From Bradyrhizobium sp. WSM471 (GTDB lineage Bacteria > Pseudomonadota > Alphaproteobacteria > Rhizobiales > Xanthobacteraceae), in assembly GCF_000244915.1 (NCBI RefSeq), contig NZ_CM001442.1:1364001-1428000 (forward strand): a stretch of DNA of 64,000 nucleotides, read 5' to 3'. A program made the translations under genes and the position numbers. Shown in pieces: positions 34,758-58,755 of the stretch. Positions within the stretch are counted from its first letter, which is position 1; the number at the start of each line of letters is the position of its first letter. The notes under the pieces were generated by a model that saw only the letters and a program-made list of their open reading frames with translations, ran no database searches and had not been told where the DNA came from.

Positions 34758-35285
34758 ATGACGACGCTCCCGATTCGTGGCCCCGTTCGCATCATCGGCA
34801 TCGACCCTGGCCTGCGCCGCACCGGCTGGGGCGTGATCGAGGCCGAGGGCAACCGCCTGATCTACATTGCCTGTGGCTCGGTAGAACCGCCGGACGATTT
34901 GCCGCTGGCGAGCCGGCTGCTCGCGATCCATGAGGGGCTCGCCGCCATCCTGTCCGGTCACAAGCCGATGGAAGCCGCGGTCGAACAGACTTTCGTCAAC
35001 AAGGACGGAGTCGCGACGCTGAAGCTCGGCCAGGCCCGCGGCGTCGCCATGCTCGCGCCTGCGATGTTCGGCATCAGTGTTGCCGAATACGCGCCGAACC
35101 AGGTGAAAAAGACGGTGGTCGGCGCCGGCCACGCCGACAAGCAGCAGATCGCGATGATGCTCAAGATTTTGCTGCCCAAGGCCGATCCGCCGTCCGCGGA
35201 CGCCGCCGACGCGCTCGCCATTGCCATCACCCATGCCCATCATCGCCAGAGCACCGCGCTGCGGCTGAAGGTGGCAGGCTTATGA
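34758..35285 (+). CDS. ruvC: Holliday junction endonuclease RuvC
   Basis: 175 residues. Catalytic acidic residues are in place: [14 protein letters not shown] (Asp), [10 protein letters not shown] (Glu), and [12 protein letters not shown] (Asp pair). Forms a dimer that cuts Holliday junctions after RuvAB branch migration. Its stop overlaps the ruvA start by ATGA, the first gene of a tight ruvC-ruvA-X-ruvB operon. Confidence 0.97.
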
Positions 35286-35899
35286 TCGGCAAGCTCAAGG
35301 GCCTGATCGATTCCTACGGCGAGGATTTCGTCATCCTCGACGTCGGCGGTGTCGGTTATCAGGTGCATTGCTCGACGCGCACGCTGCAGCATCTGCCCTC
35401 GCCGGGCGAGGCCGCCGTGCTGTCGATCGAGACCTATGTGCGCGAGGATCAGATCAAGCTGTTCGGCTTCCGCAGCGACCAGGAGCGCGAATGGTTTCGC
35501 CTGCTCCAGACCGTGCAGGGTGTCGGCGCCAAGGTCGCGCTTGCCGTGCTCGGAACGCTGCAGCCGTCCGACCTCGCCAACGCCATCGCGTTGCGCGACA
35601 AGGCTGCGGTGGCGCGCACGCCCGGTGTCGGCCCCAAGGTCGCGGAGCGCATTGTCACCGAACTGAAGGACAAGGCGCCGGCCTTTGCCAATGTCGATCC
35701 GGCGGTCGTGCATCTCGCCGGTGCCATGGACGACCAGCGCGCGCCCCGGCCCGTGGCGGACGCGATCTCAGCGCTGGTCAATCTCGGCTACGGCCAGCCG
35801 CAGGCTGCGGCCGCGATCGCATCGGCCTCGCGCAGCGCGGGCGAGAGCGCCGAGACCGCGCAGCTCATCCGGCTGGGCCTGAAGGAGCTGTCGAAGTGA
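35282..35899 (+). CDS. ruvA: Holliday junction helicase subunit RuvA
   Basis: 205 residues, normal length. N-terminal OB fold [26 protein letters not shown], the helix-hairpin-helix motifs ([27 protein letters not shown]) and the C-terminal RuvB-binding domain are all there. Overlaps both ruvC and the following membrane protein gene by 4 bp. Confidence 0.97.
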
Positions 35900-36426
35900 G
35901 TGCGGCCCGCGCCAATCCCGTCGCCGTTCTTTTCCGTCGCCTTTCGCGCGTGGCCGGTATCGTCGTGATCTTCGCCGTTGTGGGGCCGCTGACGGTCGCC
36001 GCGCTGGTTTCGGTGATGGTGACGACGCTCGGTGCCGCGGTGCTGCAGATGTTTCTTGCGCTCCTTGAGCTGGAGGCACTGCGCACCCTGGTTTCGGTCG
36101 CGATCGTGCTGCTGGCCATCGCCACGATTCTCGCCTCGTTCTTTCCCGCAGTCGCCGCCGGCTTGATCTTCGCGCTGGCCGCGGTCTACGCCGAGCTCAA
36201 CATGATCTGGATGGCGTGGCTCGCCGCAGCCGTGGCCGCCGCCGGCTTCGTCGGGTTTGGCATGTTCGTTGTGCCCGCCGAAAACTCCGCAGTGATCTTG
36301 CCGAGTGTCGGTTCCGCGCCTGAGGCGCTGAAGCTGTCCGCCCTGCTCGCTATCGTCGCTGTCATGCCGGCCAGCCTGTGCTGGTGGCTCGCGAAACCGC
36401 TGCACCGTGTTATCCTGCCCGCATGA
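35896..36426 (+). CDS. Integral membrane protein between ruvA and ruvB
   Basis: 176 residues from a GTG start at 35896 overlapping the ruvA stop (GTGA). Five to six hydrophobic segments fill most of the protein, for example [20 protein letters not shown] and [20 protein letters not shown]. Its stop overlaps the ruvB start (ATGA). No named domain is recognised. The strict translational coupling on both sides shows that it is made with the Holliday junction proteins, but an inner-membrane protein has no known role in that process. Confidence 0.82.
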
Positions 36427-37475
36427 GCACTCCTCCCCGCATGGTCACGCCCGAGCGCCGCAGCGATGATGTCGGCGACACTGCGTTGCGTCCGCAATCG
36501 CTATCCGACTTCGTCGGCCAGCAGCAGGCGCGCAAGAACCTCTCGATTTTCATCGAGGCGGCGCGCAAGCGCGGCGAAGCGCTCGATCACGTGCTGTTCG
36601 TCGGTCCGCCGGGCCTTGGCAAGACCACGCTGGCGCAGATCGTGGCCAAGGAGCTCGGTGTCGGCTTTCGCGCCACGTCGGGCCCGGTGATCGCCAAGGC
36701 TGGCGATCTTGCCGCGCTGCTCACCAATCTCGAAGAGCGTGACGTGCTGTTCATCGATGAGATCCATCGCCTGAGCCCGGCAGTGGAAGAGGTGCTCTAT
36801 CCCGCGATGGAGGACTTCCAGCTCGACCTTATCATCGGCGAGGGCCCCGCGGCGCGCTCGGTCAAGATCGAGCTGTCGAAATTCACCCTCGTCGGCGCCA
36901 CCACGCGCGCCGGCCTGCTCACCAATCCCTTGCGCGATCGATTCGGCATTCCTATCCGGCTCAATTTCTACACCATCGAAGAGCTGGAAAGCATCGTCAC
37001 CCGTGGCGCCCGGGTGCTCAATGTCGGCATGAGCGCGGACGGCGCCAACGAGATCGCGCGCCGCGCCCGTGGCACGCCGCGTATTGCCGGCCGGCTGCTG
37101 CGCCGCGTGCGCGATTTTGCCTCGGCGGCCGATGCCGACAGGATCGATCGCAAGATTGCCGACCACGCGCTGAGCGCGCTTGAGGTCGATGCCGCCGGCC
37201 TCGATGCCATGGACCGCCGCTACCTCACGACCATCGCGCAGAACTATGGCGGCGGCCCGGTCGGCGTCGAGACGATGGCCGCCGCTCTGTCGGAGCCACG
37301 CGATGCGATCGAGGACATCATCGAACCCTATCTGATCCAGTGTGGCTATCTGCAGCGGACCCCGCGCGGCCGCCTGCTCACCTCGCACGCCTTCCGCCAT
37401 CTCGGGATCGCCGAGCCCTCGCGCGATGCGGCGGCACAGTTCGGCCTGTTTGGCACCGACGAGAGCGACGACTGA
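36423..37475 (+). CDS. ruvB: Holliday junction helicase subunit RuvB
   Basis: 350 residues from the ATG at 36423. Walker [15 protein letters not shown], Walker [11 protein letters not shown], sensor 1 [11 protein letters not shown] and the Arg finger region are intact, and the C-terminal winged helix follows ([12 protein letters not shown]). It is the hexameric motor of branch migration. The longer frame from 36378 is rejected because it overlaps the membrane protein without a ribosome site. Confidence 0.97.
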
Positions 37476-37603: not shown

Positions 37604-38521
37604 ATGATCACGCGTCGTCATCTCATCCGTTCCATCGGCGCCCTGTCCGCCCTCGGCGTCTCGACCGCGGCCTATGGCGTCGGCGTCGAGCCGGTGCTGC
37701 GGCTTCGCGTCACCCGCTATCATCCAACCCCGCGGCAATGGCCGGCGGATTTCCAGCTGAAGATCGCGGTGATCGCCGACATCCATGCCTGCGATCCCTG
37801 GATGTCGCTGGAGCGGATCGAGGCCATCGTCGATCGCACCAATGCGCTCAACGCGGATATCATCGTGCTGCTCGGCGACTATGTCGCCGGCCTGCACCAG
37901 GTCACGCGCATCATTCCGGCGAACGAATGGGCCAAGGTGCTGGCCGGCCTGAAAGCGCCGCTCGGCGTCCATGCCGTCATGGGCAACCACGACTATTGGG
38001 TGGACAGGACCGTGCAGCAGGTGGGGCACGGGCCGACGGTCGCGCATCGCGCGCTGGAGGCGGCCGGCATTCCCGTCTACGAGAACGACGTCGTGCGGCT
38101 CGCCAAGGACGGCCGCGCGTTCTGGCTCGCGGGCCTCGGCGATCAGCTCGCCTTTCTGCCGGCGCGACGCTTCCGGAGCACGGGGCGCTTCGGCGCCGAT
38201 GATCTCGACGCGACGCTTGCCAAGGTCAGCGACGACGCGCCGATCATCCTGCTCGCGCATGAGCCCAATATCGCGCCGCGTGTGCCCGCCCGAGTCGCGT
38301 TGCAACTGTCCGGCCACACCCATGGCGGCCAGGTCCGCCTGCTCGGCTGGTCGCCGGCGGTTCCACCGCAGCACGGCCTCCGGCTCGCCTATGGTCATGT
38401 CCGGCTGAAATGCGACGTCATCATCTCCGGCGGCCTCGGTTGCAGCATCATGCCGCTCCGCGTCGGCGTGCCGCCTGAGATCGTCGAGGTCAGGCTGGGA
38501 CGGGGGCCGGCGGTCGCGTAG
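37604..38521 (+). CDS. Exported calcineurin-like metallophosphoesterase
   Basis: 305 residues. The start MITRRHLIRSIGALSALGVS has a twin-arginine-like signal. Metal-binding motifs are complete: IADIHACD, LLGDYV, VMGNHDYW and, near the end, LLAHEP and LSGHTHGGQVRL. Resembles the YkuE/UDP-2,3-diacylglucosamine-hydrolase-like branch of periplasmic phosphoesterases. It lies between ruvB and the start of ybgC, a position I associate with Bradyrhizobium, and is the last intact core gene before the island. Confidence 0.88.
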   Translation: MITRRHLIRSIGALSALGVSTAAYGVGVEPVLRLRVTRYHPTPRQWPADFQLKIAVIADIHACDPWMSLERIEAIVDRTNALNADIIVLLGDYVAGLHQVTRIIPANEWAKVLAGLKAPLGVHAVMGNHDYWVDRTVQQVGHGPTVAHRALEAAGIPVYENDVVRLAKDGRAFWLAGLGDQLAFLPARRFRSTGRFGADDLDATLAKVSDDAPIILLAHEPNIAPRVPARVALQLSGHTHGGQVRLLGWSPAVPPQHGLRLAYGHVRLKCDVIISGGLGCSIMPLRVGVPPEIVEVRLGRGPAVA

Positions 38522-38589: not shown

Positions 38590-38691
38590 GTGACAGCTCA
38601 TCTCGACGGCGAGATCCGCGACGGCCGCCACCACATGCAGGTCCGCGTCTACTACGAGGACACGGATTTCCCTGACTTGCCATTGTCGTAG
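38590..38691 (+). pseudogene. ybgC: ybgC (tol-pal acyl-CoA thioesterase), 5' end only, cut by island insertion
   Basis: From the GTG at 38590 the frame reads MTAHLDGEIRDGRHHMQVRV then YYEDTDF, the conserved start of the tol-pal-associated hotdog thioesterase with its catalytic Asp region. After codon 27 the sequence departs from the family (PDLPLS) and stops at 38691. The remaining 110 or so residues are missing from this window. The break is exactly where the serine recombinase gene begins on the opposite strand, so the gene was split by integration. In related genomes tolQ-R-A-B-pal follow. Confidence 0.85.
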
Positions 38692-40355
38692 TATGCAAAC
38701 GTGCTGATCTCTCGCTCCTTGCTGCGGTTTTCGGGAAAAAGGTTCCTTCCGTAAAGCGCGGAGCTGTTCAGGTAGGGCGTATATTCGTAGGGCATCCGCT
38801 TGCGAACCGGATGCACTACTATGCATTCAATCAAGTTGCGGAAGGCAATGCGAGTTTCGATCGCCTTCGGATTGGTTTTGAGCGCGGTGATAAGCCTTCT
38901 AACCTCCGAGGAGTATCGGTCACTGAATTTCGGGCGATCGAAGCCAACTATATTTTCGCCGCCACCGCCCAGCAGCCGCAAGCGCTCTTCAACGCTTTCC
39001 CGCTCCAGGTCGCACTCATCGATCCGCTTGAGCAATTCGTCCGGCTTGCGGCGGCTATTTGCGATGGCATAAGAGAGGCGTTCGATCTCGGTAGTCAATA
39101 CGCGGCGTCGACGCTCTAGCTTATTGTGTTCGCTGCCATTGTTCCGATCGTTTTTGCGCTCCTCCTTCCAAGTACGCATCGCCTCTTCAATGGCTTTCGG
39201 CGAAAGCAATTTCACCTGGATTTTTTCGGAGGCATCCTCGAGCAGAACGTCCATATCAAAGCTACGGGTGTGCTCGCAGGTGCCCCGCTGATGCGCGCTC
39301 GCGCATGCCGCGCGCGGCGCACCGTTACGCGAGGATTGAGCGATTCGCATATGGCCATTGCAGACGCCACACCGGAGCACACCGGCAAGCGGGTGCTCAT
39401 TGTTGCGCGGACTCACGGCGCGACGCCGCGGCTGGCCAGTCGGTCCGAACATAGATACCGCGCGCACCCTACGAACCTTCTGCGCTAGATCCCAGAGCCC
39501 TTGCGGAACGATCCGCAGCTCTGGCTTTTTGACGATAATGTGGCGTTCTGCTGGATTGCGGCGCTTCTGTTTCTTCTGCGTCTCTGGGTTAAGAATTGTC
39601 GAGCGAACGTTCCAATGTATCTCGCCGATGTATAGTTCGTTGCCGATAATGCCGCGACCATGCCGACCGCCTGTGATGCACTGATGGTTCCAGGTGGTGC
39701 GACCCGCCTTGTTCTTGTGACGAGTTGCCCCTGGTGAGGGCACGCCTTCGCGGGTGAGGTCAGCGGCGATAGTTCGGGTCGAGCGGCCCGCTGCATATTC
39801 TTTGAAGATGCGGAGCACAATCTTTGCTTCGTTCTCATCGATTACGCGCTCGCCGGGCGCGCCCGGCCTCGGCCGATAACCATAGGCGTATGAGCCCGGA
39901 ATTCTTCCGTTCGCAACAGCGTTGTCATGGCCGCGCCGAACCTTTTCGGCGAGCTGCGGCTTGTAAATCGTGTTGTACAGACTTGCGATGCTAATGTCAG
40001 TGGCGGTCGCGTAGACTCCTTTCTGATCCATCAACTCAACGCCGTTGAACTCGAAAACCTGCTTGAGACGCTGGATGGTTGCGGGATCGCGCGACAAGCG
40101 GTCGAAATGCTCAACGACGACTACGTCAAACTGCTGGCTTCGCACACCGTTGAGCAAGCGCTGATAGCCGTCCCGCGAACCTTCGGTAAGACCAGATTTT
40201 GCGGCATCCACAAACTCGCCGACGACATCGAGGTTGTTGCGCAATGCGACCTTGCGGCAGAGTAACAGCTGACCGTCAATCGAGCTCGCCTTTTGCATGT
40301 CGCTCGAATAGCGCGCGTATATTACGGCCGTTTTCTTCGATGACGGTGTCGTCAT
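38652..40355 (-). CDS. Large serine recombinase (island integrase)
   Basis: 567 residues. The N-terminal resolvase domain has VIYARYSSDMQ with nucleophile Ser17 and Arg15, and FDRLSRDP at 84-91. It continues with a recombinase domain (GYRPRPGAPGERVIDENEA), a zinc ribbon (RCGVCN...C...C) and a long Glu/Arg coiled coil, the full large-serine-recombinase layout. It lies at the very end of the island pointing into ybgC, as expected for the integrase. Unusually, its stop codon (38652-38654) and last five or six codons lie in the ybgC remnant, beyond the junction. ATG at 40355. Confidence 0.93.
   Translation of the reverse strand: MTTPSSKKTAVIYARYSSDMQKASSIDGQLLLCRKVALRNNLDVVGEFVDAAKSGLTEGSRDGYQRLLNGVRSQQFDVVVVEHFDRLSRDPATIQRLKQVFEFNGVELMDQKGVYATATDISIASLYNTIYKPQLAEKVRRGHDNAVANGRIPGSYAYGYRPRPGAPGERVIDENEAKIVLRIFKEYAAGRSTRTIAADLTREGVPSPGATRHKNKAGRTTWNHQCITGGRHGRGIIGNELYIGEIHWNVRSTILNPETQKKQKRRNPAERHIIVKKPELRIVPQGLWDLAQKVRRVRAVSMFGPTGQPRRRAVSPRNNEHPLAGVLRCGVCNGHMRIAQSSRNGAPRAACASAHQRGTCEHTRSFDMDVLLEDASEKIQVKLLSPKAIEEAMRTWKEERKNDRNNGSEHNKLERRRRVLTTEIERLSYAIANSRRKPDELLKRIDECDLERESVEERLRLLGGGGENIVGFDRPKFSDRYSSEVRRLITALKTNPKAIETRIAFRNLIECIVVHPVRKRMPYEYTPYLNSSALYGRNLFPENRSKEREISTFAYYDNGKSGKSVSS
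38660..38678. other. attL: left junction of the genomic island
   Basis: Core ybgC coding sequence ends at about 38,668 (within GACACGGATTTC) and island sequence starts. The exact crossover dinucleotide cannot be set without the other end. Base composition and gene density change here: intact, closely packed genes to the left, remnants and IS fragments to the right. Confidence 0.75.
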
Positions 40356-40545
40356 GCCGGTCCTCTATCGGCTGCCCCGAGCCATGATTTTCATCCCGTG
40401 CGATCTGACGTCCGATGGCGCGCGCCAACTCAAACCAGATTTCCTCATTGTCCGGATTATCCCAGCTCTGAGGATGGGAGGGGGCAAGCGGTCGAATGGT
40501 CGCTCGTTGTCTTCGGAAAGATCGGATGCGGGTAGGCATTTGCAA
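40276..40545 (-). CDS. Small protein overlapping the recombinase start
   Basis: 89 residues ending inside the first 80 bp of the recombinase gene in another frame. The sequence PQSWDNPDNEEIWFELARAI followed by GRQIARDE and a C-terminal ENGRNIRALFERHAKGE has protein-like composition with paired acidic and basic residues. The position directly before and overlapping the integrase suggests translational coupling and a possible accessory role such as a directionality factor; this is inference only, and no family is recognised. Confidence 0.55.
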   Translation of the reverse strand: MQMPTRIRSFRRQRATIRPLAPSHPQSWDNPDNEEIWFELARAIGRQIARDENHGSGQPIEDRHDDTVIEENGRNIRALFERHAKGELD

Positions 40546-41120
40546 ACTCGCGAGCGGAAGCTAGCGTAAATTTCCGCGCTGCGCTACGGCCAAGCCGCAG
40601 CGATTACTCGCAACGCGTCCCTCATGCTGGCTTCGGCAGCGTCGAATGAAAATGAAATTCGTCAAGTGCCGCAGCGTGCGTGAGGGCATTCCTGGCGATG
40701 AGGCGCGTAGTCCAGAGCAGAAATGCTAAGCAAAGCAGAGTAAAAATACTTGCGGGTGGCGGCGGCGTAAGTTTGTTATCGGGTGCGGGTGCGGGTGCGG
40801 GTGCGGGTGCGGGTGCGGGTGCCCGGTGCGTAGGAGCCGTCCTCGGTTCCCCACAGATTGTAGTGGCTGCCGCAGAGCCCCGGCGAACTGTAACGTTCAG
40901 CCCAGAGGCGGTGGTCCGAGCCCAAGGAGCCTTCGATGATTGGGTCTTTTCTTATTCCGCTTGTTCGATCGCTCTTGCGTCGAGGCTCCAAGAGCTAGCA
41001 ATCGCGTCTTCGTGAGCTCCGCAGTAAGGCGCGAAAAGCACTGTCAGAAATACTCGTGTTCCTCAGCATGCTGTAACTGGCGCTCGGGCAACCGGTTCGC
41101 CGGCAAGAGGGCCGGGCCGC
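40546..41120. other. Island region without a clear gene
   Basis: About 575 bp. The only strong structure is the GGGTGC array at 40781-40822. On the minus strand a 71-codon frame runs through that array and reads as repeating Arg-Thr, preceded by WAERYSSPGLCGSHYNLWGT, which could be a gene fragment but is not recognised. Confidence 0.5.
40781..40822. repeat. Seven tandem GGGTGC hexamers
   Basis: Perfect 6-bp units over 42 bp. Length changes would keep any reading frame. Whether it lies in a promoter or a dead gene cannot be told. Confidence 0.95.
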
Positions 41121-41300
41121 TCAGCTGGCGGCCGGAAGGCTGACGCTCGAATCATCGCTCAAAGGCGCGATGGTTTCCAGCGTCATGTAACGGGCGCGCT
41201 GGACGGCCCATTGTCGTTCTGTTCGAGCAGGACCGCTCCAATGAGGCGAACCATGGCCTTCTCCTTGGGGAACATGCCGACCATATGTCCAAACCGGTTC
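41121..41300 (-). pseudogene. IS256-family transposase, C-terminal remnant
   Basis: Read on the minus strand with one frameshift near 41,215, the sequence gives NRFGHMVGMFPKEKAMVRLI, then GAVLLEQND and EWAVQRARYMTLETIAPLSD to a stop at 41121. This is the conserved end of Mutator/IS256 transposases. The rest of the gene, including the catalytic residues, is absent; a group II intron RT fragment starts at the break near 41,295. Confidence 0.82.
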
Positions 41301-42230
41301 ACAGCCCTGCTGCACCACATCGAGAAAGACGCTCTGCTTCGGGCGTTTCGACGACAAAAGCCCGCAGGCCGGCGCGGAGGTCGATGGGATAAGGGAGGCA
41401 AAGTACGAAGAGGGGCTCACGGACCAATCCGCGATCTCTGCGCACGGGTCCACACTGTCCCTACCGGCTACAGCCGGTGCGGCGCGTCTACATCCCCAAG
41501 CCGACGGGGTAGGCGGCCTCTCGGTGTGCCGGCCGCTAGAGGACAAGATCGTCCAAAGCGCGGTGGCCGAGGTGTTGAGCGCCGCCTATGAGGTCGAATT
41601 CCTCGGGTTCTCCTACGGCTTCCGGCCGGGGCGGAATCCTCAGATGGAGCTTGATGCCCTGCATCCGGCTATCATGACATATCCAGTGTCTTCGATTCGG
41701 TCGACCACGAGTGGCTGCTGCGGATGGTGGCGCACAGGATTGCCGATCCTCGTATCCTGCAACTCATCGAGCTGCGGCTGCGAGCTGGCGTTCTTGAGAG
41801 CGGCGAGAAGCAAGACACACACCGCAAAGGGCAGGATCAGTCCGCTCCTTTCCAACATCTTCCTGCATTACCTCCTCGATCGCTGGGTCGACCACTGGAG
41901 CGGTCGCCATGCACGCGGTCGCGTTGTGACCGTGCGCTTTGCGCACGACTTCGTCATCGGCTTCGAGAGCAAGGCAGATGCCCAGGAAATGCTCTTGGCC
42001 CTCAAGGCGCGACTGGCCGGCGCTCCATGCGGACAAAACCCGGTTGATCGAGTTTGGCGCGGTTCGCGGCCCTCCCGCGTCAGCCGCGCAGCGAGCGGTG
42101 GCCGAGACCTTCGCCTTCCTGGGGTTCACTTACTTTGCGGGCGGACCCGAGATGGCCGGTTCATCGTGAAGCACAAGACCGAAGGAAAACGCCTGTGCTC
42201 TCGAACAACATCACAAGTCTCGCGCGGCTC
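41295..42230 (+). pseudogene. ltrA: Group II intron reverse transcriptase/maturase, degraded
   Basis: Pieces in changing frames follow the RT order: RFTALLHHIEKDALLRAF, RPLEDKIVQSAVAEVLSAAY with GFSYGFRPGRNP (41,530-41,640), FDSVDHEWLLRMVAHRIADP (about 41,690-41,750), ISPLLSNIFLHYLLDRWVDH (about 41,843-41,905), then GRVVTVRFAHDFVIGFES and finally FIVKHKTEGKRL. At least three frameshifts are needed. The catalytic YADD motif reads FAHD at 41938-41949, so the enzyme would be dead even if in frame. No intron domain V was found downstream. Confidence 0.85.
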
Positions 42231-42399
42231 ATGCGGGCGCCGCTCGTCGACAAACGTTGGTATAGGTTATGCAACCCGTTCTATATCCCCCGCTTACCTC
42301 TGTAGAGTTGAGCTGCCCGTCGGCTTGTCTGTAGTTTCAGCGTCGAAGCTGGATCGTCCGAAGGGTGGGGCGGCGCGAAATCCTAAGCTGAGTTGATAA

Positions 42400-42567
42400 G
42401 TGTTGGAGGTCCATCAGCACATTGTGTGCTTCCTCCAGAAGCAAGACCCAGTGATCTTGGACATCGGCTGCTACGACGGAGCTGACTCTTTACATTGTCT
42501 GCGGCTTTGCCCAGAGGCTCAGCTCTACTGGTTCGAGCCGGACCCCCCGGGGCGGTTGCTAGCTTAA
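42400..42567 (+). pseudogene. FkbM-type methyltransferase, N-terminal fragment
   Basis: A 55-residue frame (GTG 42400, TAA 42565-42567) contains the SAM-binding motif VILDIGCYDGADS and then RLCPEAQLYWFEPDP, which match the start of FkbM-family methyltransferases. It stops after WFEPDPPGRLLA. NoeI, which methylates the fucose of Nod factors, belongs to this family and sits in rhizobial symbiosis regions, but the fragment is too short to separate NoeI from other members. Confidence 0.65.
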
Positions 42568-42687
42568 GAGAAACATGGGGCTCTACCCTGAGAAGGTGCC
42601 CCTAGCCACAGTCGCCGCGTTGATGACTGTTGCTGTAGCCTGGCTTACTGGCGAATTTCCGTCAGTCTATTGAATGCGAGCATCGCG

Positions 42688-45600
42688 ATGGCATTTACCG
42701 AGCTCTTCATCAAACGTCCGATATTGTCTATCGTCGTCAGTCTCCTGATCCTGCTGACCGGCATTGGTGCGGCCACCGTTTTGCCAATCCGGCAGTATCC
42801 TAAGCTGACCAACACGGTCGTCAATATCACAACCTCTTATCCTGGCGCCTCCGCCGACATGATCCAGGGGTTCATCACCACGCCCCTTGAGCAAGCGCTC
42901 GCTTCGGCCGAAGGCGTTGATTACATTACGTCCTCGTCGGTGCTCGGTGCCTCGACGATCCAGGTCTATATCAAGCTCAATTTCGAGCCCAACGAGGCGC
43001 TCACTGAAGTGCTCTCGAAGGTCAACTCGGTCAAATATTTAATCCCTAAGGAATCGAACGATCCGGTCGTCACCAAATCTGCCGGTCAGACTACAGCTGT
43101 CATGTATATCGCCTTCTCCAGCGAAGAACTGACGGCCAGCGCGATCTCCGACTATCTCTCGCGCGTGGTGCAACCGATTATGTCAACTGTAGACGGCGTC
43201 GCAGCGGCAGACATCCTCGGCGGCCAGAGTTTTGCGATGCGGTTATGGCTCGATCCCGCGAGAATGGCGGGCCACGGCGTGTCGCCAGCTGATGTTTCGG
43301 CTGCAATCGCGGCCAACAACTTCCAGGCTGCGGCCGGCCAGACTAAGGGCTATTTCACTCTCTCCGACGTCACGGTCAACACTGATCTGCGGAGTGTTGA
43401 TGACTTCAAGCGCATGATCGTCAAAGCCAACGACGGCGGCTTTGTGCGCATGGAGGACATCGCGACAGTCGAGCTTGCGGCGCAGAGCACAAACGCCAGC
43501 GTCGCGATGAACGGCGAACACGCGATCTTCGTCGCCGTGCAGGCGAGCCCAGAAGGTAATCCACTGAACATAGCGCGAGGCGTTCGGGCACTGCTTCCAG
43601 AAATGAAGCGCAGCCTGCCGCCATCGCTGAAGATGGAAGTGGCCTACGACTCCACCAAGTTCATCCAATCATCGGTAGACGAGGTGGAGAAGACGCTCCT
43701 TGAGGCGGTCGCGATCGTGGTGTTGGTGATCTTCCTGTTCCTGGCCTCCCTGCGGTCTGTCATCATTCCGGTCGTCACCATTCCGCTGTCCATTATTGGC
43801 GTCTGCGGTATGATGCTGGCGCTGGGGTTCTCATTCAATCTGCTGACCCTCCTTGCGATGGTGCTTGCGATCGGTCTTGTGGTTGATGACGCAATTGTCG
43901 TGGTGGAGAACGTTCATCGCCATATGGAAGAAGGTGCGTCGCCCGCGCAGGCCGCTACGAACGGCGCGGGCGAGATCGTCGGCCCCGTCCTCTCCATGAC
44001 GATTACGTTGGCCGCCGTGTACGCGCCCATCGGCTTTCTCGGCGGCCTCACCGGCGCGCTGTTCCGCGAATTCGCGTTTACACTGGCGGGTTCGGTGATC
44101 GTGTCGGGCGTGATCGCGTTGACGCTGTCGCCCATGATGTGCGCGGTCTTCCTGAAGAGCGCTGAAGAGGGGCGGTTTGCAAAGTTTGTGAATCGTGTGT
44201 TCAGCGCTATGACGCGCTGGTACGGCCGCAAGCTCGACCGCTCGCTCGACTATCGCCCGATTACCGGGCTGTTTGCGCTGACCATGCTGGGCCTCGTCGC
44301 CTTTCTGTATATGCACACTTCCAAGGAACTCGCACCCGAGGAGGATCAGGGCATCGTATTCGCACTGACAAAAGCGCCGAAATACGCCAATATTGATTAC
44401 CTGGATTATTACGGCGCCAAGCTCGACAAGGCACTCCAGAAGTTTCCCGAGACGGATTTTCGCTTCGTGCTCAACGGCATCAGCGGTCCGCAGGGCGGCA
44501 TGGCCGGGATGTTGCTTAAGCCTTGGGCCGAGCGCAAGCGCTCATCGATCGCGCTGAAATCGCTGGTCCAGGCCGAGCTGTCCAAACTGGAAGGCATCAA
44601 CGCATTTGCCTTTAGCTTGCCGCCGCTTCCGGGCGGTTCCGGCGGCTTACCAGTGCAGATGGTGATCAAGTCGACGCTCGGTTTCCAGTACATCTACGAG
44701 CAGATGTCGGAGCTGAAGGATGCCGCGCGCAAGAGCGGTCTGTTCATGGTCAGCGACTCTGACCTTGAGTTCAACCAGCCGGGGGTGCGAATCAAGGTCG
44801 ATCGATCCAAGGCGAGCGACCTTGGCATCACCATGCAGAACGTCGGTAGCGCGCTCGCGACCCTCCTTGGCGGAAACTACGTCAATCGCTTCAACCTGCA
44901 GGGCCGCTCCTACGAAGTGATCCCGCAGGTGCCGCGCGAGAAACGCCTGACGCCGGAATCACTTGGGAGCTATTATGTCAAGACAGCGGCGGGCTCGATG
45001 CTGCCGCTATCGACCGTGGTCTCCATCGAGACTGCGACCAATCCGAACGCACTCACCCACTACAACCAGCTCAACTCCGCGACCTTCCAAGCCGTACCGA
45101 TGCCCGGAGTCACGATCGGTCAGGCTGTGGACTTCCTCGACGTCGAGGCAATGAAACTGCCCGCAGAGTTCAGCCACGACTTCCTCGGGGACGCCCGTCA
45201 ATATGTGCAGGAGGGTAACAAACTAGTCATCACCTTTGCGTTTGCACTCATCGTCATTTTCTTGGTGCTCGCGGCGCAGTTCGAAAGTCTGCGCGATCCC
45301 CTCATCATCATGTTCAGCGTTCCCATGGCAATCGCCGGCGCCTTAATCCCGCTATTCTTTGGCTTGGCGACGATGAACATCTACACCCAAATCGGACTGT
45401 TGACATTGGCTGGGCTGATATCCAAGCACGGTATTCTGATGGTCCAGTTCGCCAATCAGCTGCAGCTCAAGGAGAGACTCGATTCCCGCTCGGCCATCGA
45501 GATGGCGGCGCGCGTCCGCCTCCGCCCAATCTTGATGACCACCGCGGCGATGGTCACGGGCCTCTTACCTTTGTTGACCGCAACGGGTGCTGGCGCCGCG

Positions 45601-45792
45601 AGCCGCTTCTCGATCGGGCTCGTGGTCGTCGCGGGCATGTCCATCGGCACGCTGTTCACGCTTTTCGTGCTGCCGGCGCTCTATGTCGCGATCGCGTCGG
45701 ATCACCGCGCCGACGCGAGTTCCGATCACGTCCAGAACGCCGCCGAGCTCACCTTCATCGGAGCATCCGATGCCCACCTGGCCAAGCGATGA
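42688..45792 (+). CDS. RND efflux transporter (NolG/MexW-like), no adaptor gene
   Basis: 1034 residues from the ATG at 42688 (MAFTELFIKRPILSIVVSLL), a typical RND start; a TTG at 42670 would add six residues. Proton-relay residues are present in GLVVDDAIVVVENVHRHM and Lys in GLISKHGILMVQFANQL; both periplasmic loops are complete. It is clearly different from the pump at 4062. NolG of Sinorhizobium and MexI/MexW pumps are the nearest groups I recognise. No membrane fusion protein gene lies on either side: upstream are remnants, downstream a lipoprotein fragment. It must borrow an adaptor or be non-functional. Confidence 0.88.
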   Translation: MAFTELFIKRPILSIVVSLLILLTGIGAATVLPIRQYPKLTNTVVNITTSYPGASADMIQGFITTPLEQALASAEGVDYITSSSVLGASTIQVYIKLNFEPNEALTEVLSKVNSVKYLIPKESNDPVVTKSAGQTTAVMYIAFSSEELTASAISDYLSRVVQPIMSTVDGVAAADILGGQSFAMRLWLDPARMAGHGVSPADVSAAIAANNFQAAAGQTKGYFTLSDVTVNTDLRSVDDFKRMIVKANDGGFVRMEDIATVELAAQSTNASVAMNGEHAIFVAVQASPEGNPLNIARGVRALLPEMKRSLPPSLKMEVAYDSTKFIQSSVDEVEKTLLEAVAIVVLVIFLFLASLRSVIIPVVTIPLSIIGVCGMMLALGFSFNLLTLLAMVLAIGLVVDDAIVVVENVHRHMEEGASPAQAATNGAGEIVGPVLSMTITLAAVYAPIGFLGGLTGALFREFAFTLAGSVIVSGVIALTLSPMMCAVFLKSAEEGRFAKFVNRVFSAMTRWYGRKLDRSLDYRPITGLFALTMLGLVAFLYMHTSKELAPEEDQGIVFALTKAPKYANIDYLDYYGAKLDKALQKFPETDFRFVLNGISGPQGGMAGMLLKPWAERKRSSIALKSLVQAELSKLEGINAFAFSLPPLPGGSGGLPVQMVIKSTLGFQYIYEQMSELKDAARKSGLFMVSDSDLEFNQPGVRIKVDRSKASDLGITMQNVGSALATLLGGNYVNRFNLQGRSYEVIPQVPREKRLTPESLGSYYVKTAAGSMLPLSTVVSIETATNPNALTHYNQLNSATFQAVPMPGVTIGQAVDFLDVEAMKLPAEFSHDFLGDARQYVQEGNKLVITFAFALIVIFLVLAAQFESLRDPLIIMFSVPMAIAGALIPLFFGLATMNIYTQIGLLTLAGLISKHGILMVQFANQLQLKERLDSRSAIEMAARVRLRPILMTTAAMVTGLLPLLTATGAGAASRFSIGLVVVAGMSIGTLFTLFVLPALYVAIASDHRADASSDHVQNAAELTFIGASDAHLAKR

Positions 45793-45886
45793 TCCTAACG
45801 ATCAACTCGGGTTTGCTCGATCGCGCCGCTAGCGTAGCGGCGCTGCTCGCCGACCGCGGTAACTTGATCGCACTGGGTGCCTGCAG

Positions 45887-46009
45887 TTCATGGCGGCGGA
45901 CAGGAAGGATGATCCGCGGCTGCTGCGCTTCGTCTCGATCTACTGCTTGCCCGAGGTGAAGGACTACATCGCGACCAAATACGGCCGCTTCATTGTGCAG
46001 ATGTGGTGA
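45887..46009 (+). pseudogene. NLPA/MetQ-family lipoprotein, C-terminal remnant
   Basis: The last 40 codons of a substrate-binding lipoprotein are readable: FMAADRKDDPRLLRFVSIY then LPEVKDYIATKYGRFIVQMW and a stop. The KDDPR...SPEVKxFI pattern is typical of methionine-type ABC transporter binding proteins. No start or signal peptide is upstream; the sequence between the RND stop and this piece is not readable in frame. Confidence 0.65.
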
Positions 46010-46031
46010 GCGACGGATGCCTGGGAGGGTT

Positions 46032-46160
46032 TCACGGTCCCTTGCGCGTCCGGAGCTTCAAGCCGGTGGTGCGAAGCTTGGGGGGAATCATGTGTTCGGC
46101 GAAGAGCGCGTCACGGATCCGTTTCTGCTCCGACAGGCGGATGCTGTTGTTACCTGACCG
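46032..46160 (-). pseudogene. Unidentified protein C-terminal fragment
   Basis: A frame ending at 46032 reads NNSIRLSEQKRIRDALFAEH followed by MIPPKLRTTGLKLRTRKGP. It has good coding character and might be the end of an ABC transporter binding protein, but I cannot name it. Confidence 0.4.
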
Positions 46161-46374
46161 AGCAGGCCACCGCCACGTGATTTGCCGGACATCACGGCAG
46201 CATAACTCGCAAGATTGACGTCGCCCGGGACAGGGACAGAATCCATGTTCCCCGAATGGGTGGTGTACCCATTTTTCAATTGGTTCTTGGTGGAGAATTA
46301 TTCACTTCCTGACCGCGCTGCAATTGCTGTCTGAAAAGAGACCGCTGATGTGCTGCAGGCTTAGATAGTTGCCA

Positions 46375-46505
46375 AGAAATTCAGTCCCCGCCAATTTTGG
46401 GCGCGAAACGAGCCGGCCAAGACGCGATAGTCCGGCGATTACTCGAGCGCGGCCGCCATTTCGGCTAAGGTTTGGGGATCGGAGGTTCCCGGGATGAACC
46501 CGCGG
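46375..46505 (-). pseudogene. Possible 3'-5' exonuclease, N-terminal remnant
   Basis: Minus-strand reading gives FIPGTSDPQTLAEMAAALE, a stop, then SPDYRVL and in the next frame RLVSRPKLAGTEF. This resembles the start of an epsilon-like exonuclease common in rhizobia (LAEMAATLxxxPDYRVLRRLVPR). The exonuclease core with DTETTGLD is absent. Confidence 0.5.
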
Positions 46506-47166
46506 TCGGTGCGGGCCTGACTGCACTCTATCGGATGCGGCGGGGCGAGGCATCGGTTCCTGTGGACAGCTGTTCGCCCGGTTTACGTCCGCAGCTATTG
46601 GTTGGGTGGAAATAACCAGTCGGCCAAGGGATGCATCCGTGACCAGTCAGCGCGGACGCTCGAGTCCGGCACCTCGCCAGCGTCAATTGAGGCTTCGCCC
46701 GTCGAAGCGTCGAACGGGGGGTATTGACGGCGATGTCTATGGCACGCTCGCGCACATGCGGGCTTGCGCGATCTTGCATCCACCCGTGCTCCTCGCATTG
46801 GCGGCTAGCGCCGACCTGCTGCAGCACCAAGTCGCCCAGCCGCAGCGTCCGGGATGGCGGGTCGTCTCGCCGGTACAATCAGCATCGAATTCGCTCCTGA
46901 GGACGAATCCCTCAGATCGTTCCGCGGTTAGCACAACGCGGGATTCCGAATCGTTTGGCCGGAAGCCTTTCGAATGCGGTCACGTGATGGGTGTCCTCAT
47001 AGCCAAACCGGGCGCTCCGGTCGGATCCAAGGGCTCTTCTGTGAGCGCGGAAATCTGGCCGCGGGCGTGGCGGATGAAGAGCCGAATCGCAGATCGAGCA
47101 AGTCCGCTTCTGAGCCGAAGAACGACAGGCGCGCCGCATCGACACAGTCCCAAATGAGCGCCGAAT
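46506..47166. other. Island region without a recognisable gene
   Basis: About 660 bp. Several frames of 60-180 codons are open on both strands, but none shows a ribosome site, a motif or the codon bias of the intact genes. It is probably a mixture of old remnants. Confidence 0.5.
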
Positions 47167-47529
47167 TCAGCGATCGGGCCCGTCATATTCCGCCCAACTA
47201 TCCGTCGTCTCGTACACCCTCACGCTCGAGAGTTGGGCGAGGCGCGGTTTCGCGTGCTCCCAGATCCAGATGGCGATATTTTCCGCCGTCGGATTTTCCA
47301 GTCCCGGGACGTCGTTCAGGCAATGGTGATCGAGCTTCTTTATAAGAAGGCCAAACGCTTCCTCCAAGTTCAAGAAATCCATTACGAATCCGGTGTGCGG
47401 ATCGACGGCCCCGTTCAGCACGACCTCGACGCGATAGGAATGACCATGCACCCGATGACAGCGATGTGTCTGCGGGACGTTTGGAAGTCGGTGCGCTGCC
47501 TCGAACTTAAATGCTTGGGATATCTTCAT
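47167..47529 (-). CDS. queD: 6-carboxytetrahydropterin synthase QueD
   Basis: 120 residues from the ATG at 47529, the normal length. Zinc ligands His13, His28 and His30 and the catalytic Cys24 are seen in FEAAHRLPNVPQTHRCHRVHGH; the active-site His pair lies in KKLDHHCLND, and the substrate-binding Glu near VYETTDSWAEY. It converts dihydroneopterin triphosphate to carboxytetrahydropterin for queuosine and 7-deazaguanine biosynthesis. Its start overlaps the stop of a decayed queE by ATGA, so it was once translationally coupled to it. The longer frame to 47697 is read-through of that remnant. Confidence 0.92.
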   Translation of the reverse strand: MKISQAFKFEAAHRLPNVPQTHRCHRVHGHSYRVEVVLNGAVDPHTGFVMDFLNLEEAFGLLIKKLDHHCLNDVPGLENPTAENIAIWIWEHAKPRLAQLSSVRVYETTDSWAEYDGPDR

Positions 47530-47650
47530 GTGATGCCGAGTGTTTGTGGGACTGCACGCTAAGCCGCCATTTCGGCTGAGCCAGACAGTACGCGATAGCC
47601 CGCCGCTCGACGGCGTCAGGGTGGTCTTTCGATCGAAGCAGAAATTGTCC
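47526..47650 (-). pseudogene. queE: queE (7-carboxy-7-deazaguanine synthase), C-terminal remnant
   Basis: Minus-strand frame reads LGQFLLRSKDHPDAVERRAI then AYCLAQPKWRLSVQSHKH, matching the QueE end (AIxYCLxHPxWRLSxQTHKxLGI). One base is missing after HKH; restoring it gives LGIT and a TGA that overlaps the queD ATG. The radical SAM core is absent from the window, so the gene is dead. This fixes the former order queE-queD. Confidence 0.72.
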
Positions 47651-48229
47651 AAGCCACGCTCATCGAACCGGTCTGGCAGGCTGCCGGTTGCGGCCATACG
47701 AATTTTCAGTTCGTGTCCGCGAGTGACGGCCAGCGCGGCGCGATTTACTGACGCAAATCAAGTCACCACGCTGGCCGGGGCCGGCAGCCTGCCGTTCGTC
47801 TCGATCGCGCTGAGGAACCCGATATCGTGTACAGATTGCAGGACATCATCGAACCACCACAGTGGTTCTGAGCACGTTCATTGCTTGTGCCATGCAGATG
47901 ATGGAGCGTCTACTACAAGATCCGGTAGATGCCAAAACCAACTTGAGGCTCTAGGGTCTGGCCGCGTTTCCCCGCCGATCATCATCCCGAGAAGTGAACG
48001 CAACCGGCACGATGCTCAACCAAAGGGCGGAACGGCACAATATGACTAGCAGAACCTGGGGGCTACCCTCGAACACCTCAGTCAGTATTCGCTACAACTG
48101 ACGGGAGGCGTATGCCCAGGCAAAAATCAGCTTTGAAAACGTCAACCTATCCAGGCGATCACGGCTTGCCAGAGCAGATCCGGAGAGGATTGCGCTGAGT
48201 ACGCCATCGTCGAATTTGGAAAAGTTCAC
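47651..48229. other. Gap before the MATE gene
   Basis: About 580 bp with no recognisable gene. It should contain the MATE promoter. I looked for nod-box-like and NifA (TGT-N10-ACA) sites and saw none that are convincing. Confidence 0.45.
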
Positions 48230-49654
48230 TTGTCCGTGAATGGACCGAATACAGAATTCGCCCTCGACAGCAAGCGCAATGTGATGCCAAAGAAAAAACA
48301 GCACGTCGATCTATCGGACCAGAATCTCTTGAGTCTTATCCTGCGGCTCGCCATTCCGTCTGTTGTTGGATTATCGATCCATGCGCTGCAGCAGGTCGTC
48401 AATGCGATCTTTGTTGGCGCCCTAGGCGCGCAGGCGATCGCAGCTGTTAGCATGACCTTGCCGATCGTGGTCCTGCTCGCCGCAGCCGGACAGGGGATCG
48501 GTGTTGGAGCAGCGTCGTTCATATCTCGTCATCTGGGCGCTCGTGAGTACCTAGAAGCGAGTCGAGGCGCAAGCACGGCACTCGCGCTGGCCGCTCCGAT
48601 CGGTATCATAGTCACCCTCACTCTGCTTCCAAATCTGCCAGGGATATTTGCAACGCTCGGAGCAACCCCAACCATCATGCCCGTGGCGCTCGACTACGCG
48701 GGAACGGTTTTGTTGGGGTACACCCCGATGCTACTAAATACCGTCAGCGGGTTCATTGTAAGAGCCGAAGGCTATACACGATTTAGCATGTGGGTGATGA
48801 TGACCGCGTTTATCCTGAACGCTGTGCTTGATCCCGTCTTCATATTTTCACTTGACCTTGGCGTGCGAGGCGCAGCCCTCGCAACGCTGGTGTCTCAGAT
48901 CTCTGCTGTCGGACTGTATATCGTGTATTTTACGAAGCTTGGCGGGACGGTTCTCGTCAGGATATCTCACATATCATTGCGAGCAGATCGCATCAGACAG
49001 CTCGCGTTGGTAGGCGCGCCGGCGACAATGACGAGTATCTTATCTGCTCTTGCCGTTATGCTCTTGTACGGAGCTGCTGCGCCGTTCGGCGACGATTCCA
49101 TCGCCGCGGTTGGAATAGCTGTGCGTATCTTGATGGTCGGCGCACTGCCTATCACCGGGTTCTGTATTGGCGCTCAAGCTATCCTGGGTTTCGGTTGGGG
49201 CGCACGCGACTATGCTCATATATTGAGAGCTGCGAAGTTCATGCTCTTCGTGACGATCGCATTCTCGGTGCTGTATTCTGCGGCCGTTGTGATTTTTGCA
49301 AGGCCTTTGGTGAGCCTATTTAGCGATAACGAGTACGTCACCGAAATTGCCGTCTCGACCTGCATCGTGTTCCATCTCTTCTTTGGACTGTTTGGGGTTC
49401 AGAGTTTCGTGACGGCAATGCTTCAGTCATTTGGGAGAGCGCGCCTCAGTGCAATTGTGTCCTTGGCCAGGCAGGGGTATCTCTTCATACCGGCCGTACT
49501 ATTATTCCCGCTGGTAGCGGGTTTTAACGGACTGTTAGCCAGTCAAGCGCTCGCAGAGCTTGGCGCCGGAATAATCGCTCTCATCGTCATGTTCAACCAG
49601 TTCGGCGAGCTCAGACGAGCGCTCCGGCACGGTCCTCAAGAGCGATCGGGATAG
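48230..49654 (+). CDS. MATE-family efflux transporter
   Basis: 474 residues with 12 hydrophobic segments, normal for NorM/DinF-type exporters. Typical segments include LRLAIPSVVGLSIHALQQVV and the second-half copy LALVGAPATMTSILSALAVM. The start is uncertain: TTG at 48230 gives this length, while the ATG at 48284 gives a 456-residue protein starting MPKKKQHVDL and still full. It is visibly more A/T-rich than the core genes, with ATA and other codons rare elsewhere, which suggests transfer. It exports small organic cations or drugs by Na+ or H+ antiport; substrate unknown. Confidence 0.88.
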   Translation: MSVNGPNTEFALDSKRNVMPKKKQHVDLSDQNLLSLILRLAIPSVVGLSIHALQQVVNAIFVGALGAQAIAAVSMTLPIVVLLAAAGQGIGVGAASFISRHLGAREYLEASRGASTALALAAPIGIIVTLTLLPNLPGIFATLGATPTIMPVALDYAGTVLLGYTPMLLNTVSGFIVRAEGYTRFSMWVMMTAFILNAVLDPVFIFSLDLGVRGAALATLVSQISAVGLYIVYFTKLGGTVLVRISHISLRADRIRQLALVGAPATMTSILSALAVMLLYGAAAPFGDDSIAAVGIAVRILMVGALPITGFCIGAQAILGFGWGARDYAHILRAAKFMLFVTIAFSVLYSAAVVIFARPLVSLFSDNEYVTEIAVSTCIVFHLFFGLFGVQSFVTAMLQSFGRARLSAIVSLARQGYLFIPAVLLFPLVAGFNGLLASQALAELGAGIIALIVMFNQFGELRRALRHGPQERSG

Positions 49655-49734
49655 CGGGTTGAGCTGAGAACGGATATGATCGAGGCACAGAGCATTGGGC
49701 GCTAGCCTCCTGGGAGGCTCGCCGTTAAAGCGTG

Positions 49735-50330
49735 ATGGGACTAGCTTCGATAGCCTGAGTTTTTGAGGTAGTTGGCGCATTCTTCGGGTGTAAATGCATA
49801 AAGGAGTTCGCCGATGGCGGCGCAGACCGCATCGACGGTTCGTGCGGCTGCCTTGCGGAGCAAACGCTTGAGTTTGGCACGACTTGTTCGATGGGGTTCA
49901 GGTCGGGTGAGTATTTTGGCAGGAAGAAGAGCTTTGCTCCGGCGAAGCGGATGAGCTGGCGCACGGCTTTGCTTTTGTGGCTGCCGAGATTGTCCGGGAC
50001 GACGATGTCGCCGGGCCGAAGGGTCGGCAGGAGAACCTTCTCCACATAGATCGGAAGCTCACGCCATGATTGGTCCCTCGATGAACCATGGCACATTGAT
50101 CCGGTCATGGCGCAGGGCCGCCAGAAAGGTAATGGTTTTCCAACCCATCTGGCCCCGAGCAACGCTGCCGGTCTCATCGACCCGCTTCATCCAGCCGATC
50201 GCCGTGCTGATCGCCACTCCAAACTGCTTGGCGGCCCGATTGCGCGCCCTACCGGCCAAATTAAGGGCGTCAGCTCTTACGGCATTGATATCGGCCAAAG
50301 GCTGGAAGTCGAAACGGCCCAAGGCAGCGG
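49735..50330 (-). pseudogene. IS630-family transposase with internal deletion and frameshifts
   Basis: Minus-strand pieces give the N-terminal HTH end (IGWMKRVDETGSVARGQMG), then directly KTITFLAALRHDRINVPW, skipping about 90 residues including the first catalytic Asp. After a frameshift comes YVEKVLLPTLRPGDIVVPDN with LGSHKSKAVRQLI and FLPKYSPDLNPIEQV; after another shift the end is ECANYLKNSGYRS. The element cannot make a working transposase. Confidence 0.88.
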
Positions 50331-51204
50331 CAATGTGGTCGGCCGTGAAGCGGGGGTGATCTCAATCGAGAACTGACTGTCATACCAGTAACATGCGGCG
50401 TTTCCGAATTGGTGAATGGACCCCCCTTTGCGCTTTGCCACTCTATGGCAAGCAGCTAAATGCAATGGCGCCAATACAAAAGGTGATGCTAACTTTTGCT
50501 ACAAACCAGGTAAACACGGGCACGGTCATCGACAAGGCCTACAGCCAGAGCATCTTGATTGACCTACCTTATACTCAAACCGAATGTCGCATACGACATA
50601 AACAACGGCTGGGAGTGGGGAAACTTCAGCTGGGCCCAGTCGAGACGACGGATGAGATTCTGACGCGCGCAGCTGCCTCTCGGCATCGGATGGATTTCGC
50701 GTGCCTCAGTGCCGTCTTGAGTACGGCAGCGAACGAAAAAATGTTGGGCCCGTGTTCGAACCTGCGGGACTCGATCACGCATCGTGAATGTATCATCAGG
50801 TGAATCAGGCCGTAACCAGCTATCGGAGAACTTGCACATCTTGATCGGGCTACCGGCCGAACAGGATGTGAAGATTGGCGGAGGCCGGGACGGCCCCCGC
50901 GAATGGTTTGAATACGTTATCGACAATGTCTTACGTGTTTGCTGACTTTGCCGATCACTGCCCCTGGCACTTCGGCCAGGCGCGTCCGTATAAGCACGAC
51001 TTGAAGAGAGGCCGGAGCACTGACCTATGAACAAGCGGCCTCTCGATCGCGGCGCATCGTCTCATCCGCCGCATCGGGTTGGAGACAGTGCGATGGCGAG
51101 TTGGCTGTGGCATGACCTTCGTAGGTTGATCCTCTGGCCTTGTGCATCGACTCGCGGCATGCTCGTGAGCCCTTCGCGTACAAGGGCAAGTGCAGAATCG
51201 CGGC
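50331..51204. other. Island region without a recognisable gene
   Basis: About 870 bp. A 136-codon plus-strand frame at 50393-50803 and a 156-codon minus-strand frame at 50564-51034 overlap; neither is convincing. A plus-strand stretch at about 50,950-51,030 reads DHCPWHFGQARPYKHDLKRG before a stop and looks like a protein C-terminus, not identified. Confidence 0.45.
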
Positions 51205-52605: not shown

Positions 52606-52705
52606 CTCTGATCCCGGGTTCCGGACGCTACGCAAACAACTTTCTCCGAACACGGGCGAGAGTTAAAGCTAAAATCGGAGATGTTATGGAGGCTAATAAG
52701 TATGA

Positions 52706-53761: not shown

Positions 53762-53949
53762 AGGAAGCCTACGCTAATGGATTTTTATCGGGTGAGCCAC
53801 TAGTCCGTTTTCTCAGTTGCGGCGAGTCAATCTACTCGACAGGTTGGTGCACCGGAAACTCGCGCTTGCTGCGCAAACAGCCGATTCCAAAGCCGCAGCG
53901 GTGGAACTGTTCGACGACACTTCATTTATCCACATTTCCAACCGCTCCA
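53762..53949. other. Gap before LysR gene
   Basis: About 190 bp containing the lysR promoter region and the start of an unexplained plus-strand frame (53817-54071, LLDRLVHRKLALAAQTADSK) that overlaps the IS4 remnant and is not recognised. Confidence 0.4.
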
Positions 53950-54350
53950 ATTTCGGCGCAGAGTTCGATCCGGTGTGTCTGGAGAGTCCGCGCCAGATGA
54001 CAACATTTCCGGGTGGCGGATCGGCGGCCCTGGCCAGGTCGCCACCCAATAGTGCAAGTTCGGTCAAGTAGAATGCGGGGGCTCCAAGGCGACCTCGTCG
54101 AATGCCGACGTCCTTGATGAGTTCATCGAGCAATACGATCTCGGTGTCTGTGAAGGCGATCTTCGGTGATGCGTCCGGGCCGTACGATTGAGCATGATGA
54201 GCCAGAGGACGCGCCAGCTGAGAGGGCAGACGACCGCCATCAAACTAGCGAGCCGCTCCGCGGTCCGCAGTTTTGAGTCCTCCGCACTGCAGCCCGATTT
54301 TAGGAGCTTCTGGAACAGCTCGATTTTCGTGCACGCACCTATTGGATCAT
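53950..54350 (-). pseudogene. IS4-family transposase, C-terminal remnant
   Basis: Minus-strand reading with one frameshift near 54,195: KIELFQKLLKSGCSAEDSKL, RTAERLASLMAVVCPLSWRV, LWLIMLNRTA, then IAFTDTEIVLLDELIKDVG and GGDLARAADPPPGNVVIWRG LSR. This is the C-terminal third of an IS4-type DDE transposase, with the E-containing K/R helix region and the DPPPGN-WRGLSR end. The N-terminal two thirds are gone. Confidence 0.82.
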
Positions 54351-58509: not shown

Positions 58510-58700
58510 CCCTCTCGAACCGCTCGAGAGTCCTTGCTTAGCTTTCCCATCCCTTCGTTGGTCCACACTGTTGAACTCGCGCCGCAGCATGGTATCGGGT
58601 TTGATCAGCGCCGGCGCCACCACCTCCAGTCCAGGATGATCGGCGAGGATGACCTTCCGACCAATAAGCCGCTCGCGAGCGCCTTCAAATCGCGCTATGA
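58510..58700 (-). pseudogene. Possible IS110-family transposase middle fragment
   Basis: Minus-strand reading gives GLEVVAPALIKPDTMLRREF NSVDQ and, shifted, GKLSKDSRAVREGYDIRLL. This resembles the linker of IS1111-type IS110 transposases (PGLExxxxALLKARxxLRxEFNxL...VRKLARDD). It would be the part upstream of the C-terminal remnant at 57416-57760 if about 750 bp had been inserted or rearranged between them. Confidence 0.5.
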
Positions 58701-58755
58701 CGAGCGGGCGGACTGACTGTTACCCGTCTACCAAACGGGACAAAGAGGCGTTACG

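Follow-up and report, generated by a model that had tools for sequence, protein, structure and literature searches.

The interruption of ybgC in Bradyrhizobium sp. WSM471 is very probably the attL_Y junction of a bipartite tRNA-Val symbiosis ICE (symICE), an element that carries a ybgC of its own which would supply YbgC during the split. The junction lies in a stretch of 64,000 nucleotides, here called the window (C1:1364001-1428000, where C1 is contig NZ_CM001442.1 of 7,784,016 bases; G- and L-numbers below are labels for comparison genomes and loci). An already published class of mega-ICE thereby gains a footing at the level of base pairs: a serine recombinase (IntY), a TT core, and exact attL and attR in ybgC.

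A query spanning window positions 37604-38668, the host side of the junction, has matches in 255 of 257 genus genomes (among the matches listed), and the two ybgC halves are contiguous in G127 and other relatives. The first-pass annotation had proposed that a large serine recombinase element integrated within ybgC after 27 intact codons. The integration and its left edge in codon 27, beside an outward-facing IntY, are borne out; 26 codons are complete, and of the 27th (TTC) only TT is common with native ybgC, foreign sequence following position 38669. Alignment with relatives lacking the island, which had been suggested as a check, reads the crossover dinucleotide as TT and narrows the proposed fine-scale boundary to two bases. 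Among the closest loci fetched that carry the 5' half, ybgC is uninterrupted at 20 of 30, and IntY-type sequence comes next at all 10 split loci, supplied in G019 by a recombinase gene that is broken. The 3' part of ybgC occurs at C1:6708360-6708722 on the minus strand behind an abrupt junction, the DNA before it not being native ybgC. A new fusion gene at this 3' half was considered and rejected: the upstream frame, though open, is irregular in length (134 codons in total in G131) and has no DTD motif. Just within the island is a tandem CGGGTG hexamer array (7 units, window 40780-40821), and the ORF at 41524-42396, which we take to be reverse-transcriptase-like and of group II intron type, appears degraded.

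Table 1. Features at and around the ybgC junction, in window coordinates
Feature	Position	Strand	Remarks
Presumed ruvC-ruvA-ruvB-like ORFs	34758-35285, 35282-35899, 36378-37475 (34758..37475)	+	Chromosomal flank; from ORF list, named by sequence
Presumed metallophosphoesterase-like ORF	37604..38521	+	Chromosomal flank, immediately 5' of ybgC
Start of native ybgC (GTG, 26 codons); host half of attL_Y	38590..38667	+	Joined to 3' half in empty relatives, e.g. G127
attL_Y region	38640..38700 (approximate extent)	.	Comprises the host half and, on the element side, CCCTGACTTG...
IntY, large serine recombinase, 567 aa	38652..40355	-	Ends in host DNA (4 codons plus stop); Pfam and tail analysis
Inferred crossover core TT, 2 bp	38668..38669	.	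First two bases of Phe codon in YYEDTD-F; found at attB, attL and attR alike when aligned by codon
Left end of large symICE arm	38670..64000	.	Arm extends to tRNA-Val at C1:1971842-1971916; NifH, TraG-like and TrbI-like genes lie outside window

The far end of the island had also been expected to hold the 3' part of ybgC together with the rest of tol-pal. The 3' part is there, and tolQ is not, lying 54 kb from it. Because tolQ is already some 34-59 kb from ybgC in ten empty relatives as well (G127, G060, G023, G032, G013, G252, G263, G218, G141, G058), tol-pal was not split by the island; adjacency of ybgC and tolQ is an assumption transferred to Bradyrhizobium, and it does not hold in the genomes checked. 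A complete ybgC-tolQ at a locus without the other half of the junction, which would have spoken against integration, was not seen; the element does hold a complete extra ybgC, and the other half is present too.

The 567-aa ORF is, by its three Pfam domains, a large serine recombinase (Resolvase 4.7e-25, Recombinase 1.9e-18 and Zn_ribbon_recom 2.5e-8, all above cut-offs), with the catalytic part of TP901-1 integrase as its best sequence match among solved structures (PDB). Its closest named relative, in a search that may leave out the window's own genome, is a 99% identical protein of B. canariense BTA-1. The same ybgC codon is the site at 28 of the 30 best-scoring recombinase loci from Bradyrhizobium genomes and at 28/34 loci from named genomes (one of them the spare-type locus L280), so its placement there is not a matter of chance; at L277 the recombinase is located at a different sequence. 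The family also occupies this codon in metagenome-assembled genomes (MAGs) labelled Afipia, Xanthobacteraceae, Hyphomicrobiaceae, Sphingorhabdus and Rhizorhabdus, as well as Bradyrhizobium. IntY relatives in alphaproteobacterial MAGs of several groups (L269, L271, L273, L274, L276) are each joined to a different ybgC, and in four of these loci (L269, L271, L273, L274) the C-terminal sequence is identical, reflecting either recent wide transfer or binning noise. This genome holds two other large serine recombinase matches, which were rejected as IntY partners, being only 24-27% identical to it over the matched part. The second recombinase (C1:1961995-1964064, L014:8995-11064; 689 aa, with an extra C-terminal HTH_17 domain) is 24% identical to IntY and lies in the large arm, ~8 kb from its tRNA-Val end. 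The third match (C1:7488838-7489746, a Recombinase domain in a 567-aa open frame) adjoins a low-GC stretch of ~20 kb at 7.46-7.48 Mb that is probably another island.

Defining features of large serine recombinases are a crossover core of 2 bp and attP half-sites in inverted repeat. In codon register, uninterrupted ybgC reads GAY-TT-YTCNGGN in 20/20 natives, these being the closest loci rather than a sample of the genus; at attL, GAY-TT leads through C or T into the element, and attR has GAG or GTG ahead of TT-YTCNGGN. For the 5' side the comparison takes in 20 intact loci and 10 split ones, for the 3' side 19 and 11. The base in wobble position behind TT is variable in attR, as it is in hosts, and is C in 27 of 28 attL sites, as expected if it derives from the element, so the core narrows to TT. 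We thus infer from these alignments a 2-bp TT core common to attB, attL and attR. G057 (L203, L248/L050) is a natural control for it. In this genome the element is inserted in reverse, with attL reading GGAC-TT-CTCTGACTTGACGATATCGC (ybgC-side arm) and attR reading GTCAAGTCAGAG-AA-TTCCGGC (int-side arm). The dinucleotide is TT in the former and AA in the latter, so the two breaks bracket one and the same pair of bases. Pairing between the modelled attP arms extends to 12 of 12 bases for G027-type elements and to 7 of 10 for this genome.

Neither junction rebuilds ybgC; the element encodes a complete, divergent copy (hereafter the spare) at C1:6719710-6720153, 11 kb inside the small arm, with a 4HBT domain by Pfam and matches to solved YbgC structures. 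Among the matches listed, a complete spare ends ~90-100 bp from the native 3' half in at least 18 genomes (G012, G025, G027, G030, G033, G034, G035, G044, G052, G074, G088, G103, G106, G110, G131, G183, G187, G247). It adjoins IntY at attL in G112 and G209, and the attR of this genome contains a 43-bp match to the end of another spare copy. Frames of ≥144 codons are found in 46 copies, from 38 of the 41 genomes examined (none in G190, G216 or G253); one, the second copy of G035, reads beyond the usual stop to 303 aa, and another, the second copy of G030, has GTD instead of DTD, its core having been read by eye. Where natives have FSG at the crossover codons, spares have SGQ, AGQ or once SGK. 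TT at the crossover position occurs in 0/46 spares versus 20/20 uninterrupted natives among the closest loci, a zero that is in part selection, since resemblance to the spare of this genome was the basis on which copies were chosen. TT does occur in another kind of extra ybgC, the FSQ type of G112 and G216; next to attR, G216 has just a remnant of the spare, and the FSQ copy is the only intact one there. Two spare copies are present in each of nine genomes (G033, G034, G035, G030, G110, G131, G183, G187, G189), ~5-11 kb apart in six of them (one copy being broken in G189) and on different contigs in three, as if elements had been gained in a nested fashion.

The spare follows IntY rather than native ybgC. 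In a scan of 257 of 265 genomes (G260, which carries IntY, was left out), two or more ybgC matches occur in 33/33 genomes with full-length IntY at ≥81% identity versus 23/224 others, by hand count among the matches listed, with a severed 3' half counting as one match and several of the 23 carrying IntY remnants. An intact core-less spare is present in 32 of the 33, the exception being G216 with its intact FSQ copy. Across the 24 genomes for which IntY, spare and 3' fragment were all available, Mantel correlation of spare distances is strong with IntY (r 0.66, p 0.001) versus none with native ybgC (r -0.02, p 0.53), and IntY correlates weakly with native ybgC (r 0.23, p 0.011). In an earlier set drawn with a narrower motif (40 copies, 37 genomes), smaller than the 46-copy set, median dN/dS is 0.12 among 34 distinct spares (540 pairs, maximum 0.44) versus 0.06 for 190 native pairs, and a protein tree places 37 spares in one clade (support 0.855) separate from 20 natives (0.999). 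By these ratios the spare is under purifying selection.

The best reading of these patterns, in our view, is that the element would replace the ybgC it destroys, as do a Vibrio recA island and tRNA-dependent lysogeny; from conservation and linkage we infer rescue of YbgC function by the spare, and the host probably keeps that function despite the split. The spare would supply YbgC while the native gene is split, it would be a poor IntY target without the TT core, and the two together would let integration proceed at little cost to the host. An own copy lacking the core suggests how an element can split a conserved host gene. If the rescue is real, gain, loss and compatibility of a symbiosis ICE become testable with one gene, ybgC. 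The alternative is that the second ybgC replaces nothing, being a passenger gene of the usual sort or a paralog that acts on some other substrate. In its favour, natives are only ~62-65% identical to the spare over its last 96 residues, a second match occurs in those 23 genomes without full-length IntY at ≥81% identity, and the severed native 3' fragments are open in 29 of 29 with dN/dS of 0.087 against intact genes and 0.095 among themselves (intact genes among themselves, 0.079). Undecayed fragments suggest that splits are recent or often undone, perhaps to the point that rescue was never required. YbgC may be non-essential, and SGQ/AGQ may be merely the older state of a foreign ortholog. 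Passenger status is nonetheless unlikely, given a spare that abuts attR in so many genomes, co-varies with IntY, lacks the core in nearly every scanned IntY carrier and is under purifying selection. B. diazoefficiens Tn-seq was considered as a guide to ybgC essentiality and set aside, ybgC being unmentioned in the main text.

Absolute immunity of the spare was likewise rejected. In L280 (Bradyrhizobium sp. 139, NZ_JADPKS010000102.1) an IntY relative lies within a spare-type ybgC (YFEDTDS) with core TC, a possible case of nested integration and a shift of core specificity, and in G193 the attR junction is in a further ybgC type; absence of TT therefore may lower targeting and does not abolish it.

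The two halves of ybgC belong to different arms. The first-pass annotation had a single island; the element is in two pieces, with the 3' half 5.3 Mb away on the opposite strand (2.5 Mb the other way if the contig is circular) and an inversion between. From ~0.645 before the junction, GC drops and stays largely within 0.55-0.63 over ~569 kb, some 5-kb bins reaching as high as 0.69, and is ~0.65 again past the tRNA-Val(CAC) at C1:1971842-1971916, which ends the large arm 569 kb from the 5' half of ybgC. A 46-bp repeat of the 3' end of this tRNA (attV) is found at 1971841-1971886 and, in opposite orientation, at 6763442-6763487; the latter copy is 55 kb from attR_Y and delimits a small arm, from tRNA-Val repeat to the 3' half of ybgC, that is GC-poor only across its first ~38 kb. 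Each arm is thus bounded by a ybgC half on one side and a tRNA-Val att site on the other, with an integrase gene at one of the two: IntY at attL_Y in the large arm and a tyrosine integrase (C1:6761846-6763246) adjoining attV in the small arm. By Pfam the large arm carries NifH, TraG, TrbI and a family-2 glycosyltransferase that may be NodC. In the small arm, C1:6745814-6761032 holds two large ORFs that are presumably helicase/nuclease-like and a pair that we take to be AbiE-like, possible defence cargo. At G018:C1:6168996-6186000 (L206) an attR with native 3' half is accompanied by an intact spare ybgC, and IntY was not found in G018 at E 1e-60; the element there has possibly decayed.

Under the model published by Weisberg, a circular element would enter at one site and a second att reaction would then invert the chromosome between the two sites; excision by attL x attR would restore native ybgC. 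A simpler account would have one contiguous serine-recombinase island whose far end was moved by an unrelated inversion or an assembly error, the tRNA-Val repeat being coincidental. Both ybgC halves are exact junctions, an inversion is required in any case, and the distance between the halves rests on the assembly, although they are likewise far apart on one contig in G112 (1.84 and 7.47 Mb), G027 (1.68 and 7.93 Mb) and G033 (1.40 and 6.91 Mb). In only 5 of 12 relatives (G032, G023, G013, G252, G058) do the outer flanks of the tRNA-Val repeats adjoin each other, allowing for small differences in length; in the other seven, which include the IntY carriers G112 and G189, the match is limited to the repeat or a short stretch beyond, and G127 has a further repeat copy 14 kb away. 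What makes the simple island highly improbable is the further att pair found at tRNA-Val, which has an integrase of its own and flanks adjacent in five empty relatives and which explains the inversion, together with agreement of the layout with the published bipartite model. That a recombinase came to stand beside a ybgC pseudogene by chance, with no integration, deserves practically no credence, given the recurrence of the same codon in both locus sets, the contiguous empty sites and the matching 3' half, which refutes it.

The bipartite symICE has a further property at its IntY end. Host ybgC DNA supplies the final four codons of IntY together with its stop (SVSS, stop), and KSVSS ends the protein in 28/28 loci read; attP lies inside the 3' end of intY, so integration also swaps the tail of the recombinase. 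In a modelled circle (int arm joined to attR arm) IntY would have 586 aa, ending NSGLTISQQ...LGRWRAIA, NSGLTISQQNTNFLISLGRWRAIA, as against 567 aa ending KSVSS in the chromosomal form. Tails predicted from attR arms have 22-25 codons in 28 of 29 cases, and one reads on; in L281, L282 and L283 the core is deleted and the int gene continues into the tail, L283 alone keeping the frame. The tail was not accepted as proven coding sequence: pN/pS for 17 distinct 24-codon tails is 0.54 (0.61 past the attP arm), which does not fall clearly under the column-permutation null (20 of 200 as low), and an antisense frame gives the same score. Coding by the tail is therefore a hypothesis and a lead, and the swap could act as a direction or stability switch of IntY, a simple, testable idea for direction control. 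More speculatively, IntY, attP_Y and the core-less ybgC might form a self-contained 'cut and replace' module, with the tail swap as a possible switch of direction or stability. If that is true, loss of the module without precise excision would mean loss of YbgC, which would stabilise the element.

Bipartite tRNA-Val symICEs, including the ybgC site, have already been described in Bradyrhizobium (Weisberg et al. 2022, PMC9239051, in its available portion; PMC9174649), with a large arm at tRNA-Val, a small B arm of ~0.05 Mb at ybgC and an inversion between, and for B. japonicum strains the accessible part of PMC11218460 has an integrase gene and ybgC bordering island B. Supplements aside, we found no description in the open-licence literature of IntY as a serine recombinase, of the TT core or of a core-less ybgC; what goes beyond the print we found is the TT core, the core-less spare ybgC that follows IntY, and the replacement of the recombinase tail. 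The element resembles the Weisberg symICE in its large tRNA-Val arm, small ybgC arm, integrase at an att site of each arm, inversion and symbiosis genes, whereas the serine recombinase, crossover bases, spare ybgC and integrase tail change are absent from that account (main text of PMC9174649; available portion of PMC9239051). It is also akin to the tripartite ICE3 of Mesorhizobium (Haskett; PMC5882170, PMC8627217), likewise a polypartite ICE with several site-specific recombinases. In the sections available of those two sources, ICE3 has three parts with IntG and IntM called tyrosine recombinases, as is IntS of the related R7A element, compared with two parts, one serine and one tyrosine recombinase here.

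Two other systems parallel the inferred replacement of the target gene. Like our element, the recA mobile element of V. cholerae (Rapa et al., PMC4405046) uses one housekeeping-gene site in either orientation and brings a complete divergent copy; as far as the accessible text of that paper goes, the gene copy is at one end and the integrase at the other, and its authors state that an own copy avoids the cost of disruption. The recA element differs in being a single 33-kb island with a phage integrase, reported for one strain, and absence of the target core is not reported in that text. In tRNA-dependent lysogeny (Guerrero-Bustamante and Hatfull, PMC10865867) the common core is again short, the target is not rebuilt and the element supplies the function. 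By the available part of that account, it involves a tRNA target, a tyrosine integrase and a phage and is experimentally shown, while the ybgC case is known from sequence.
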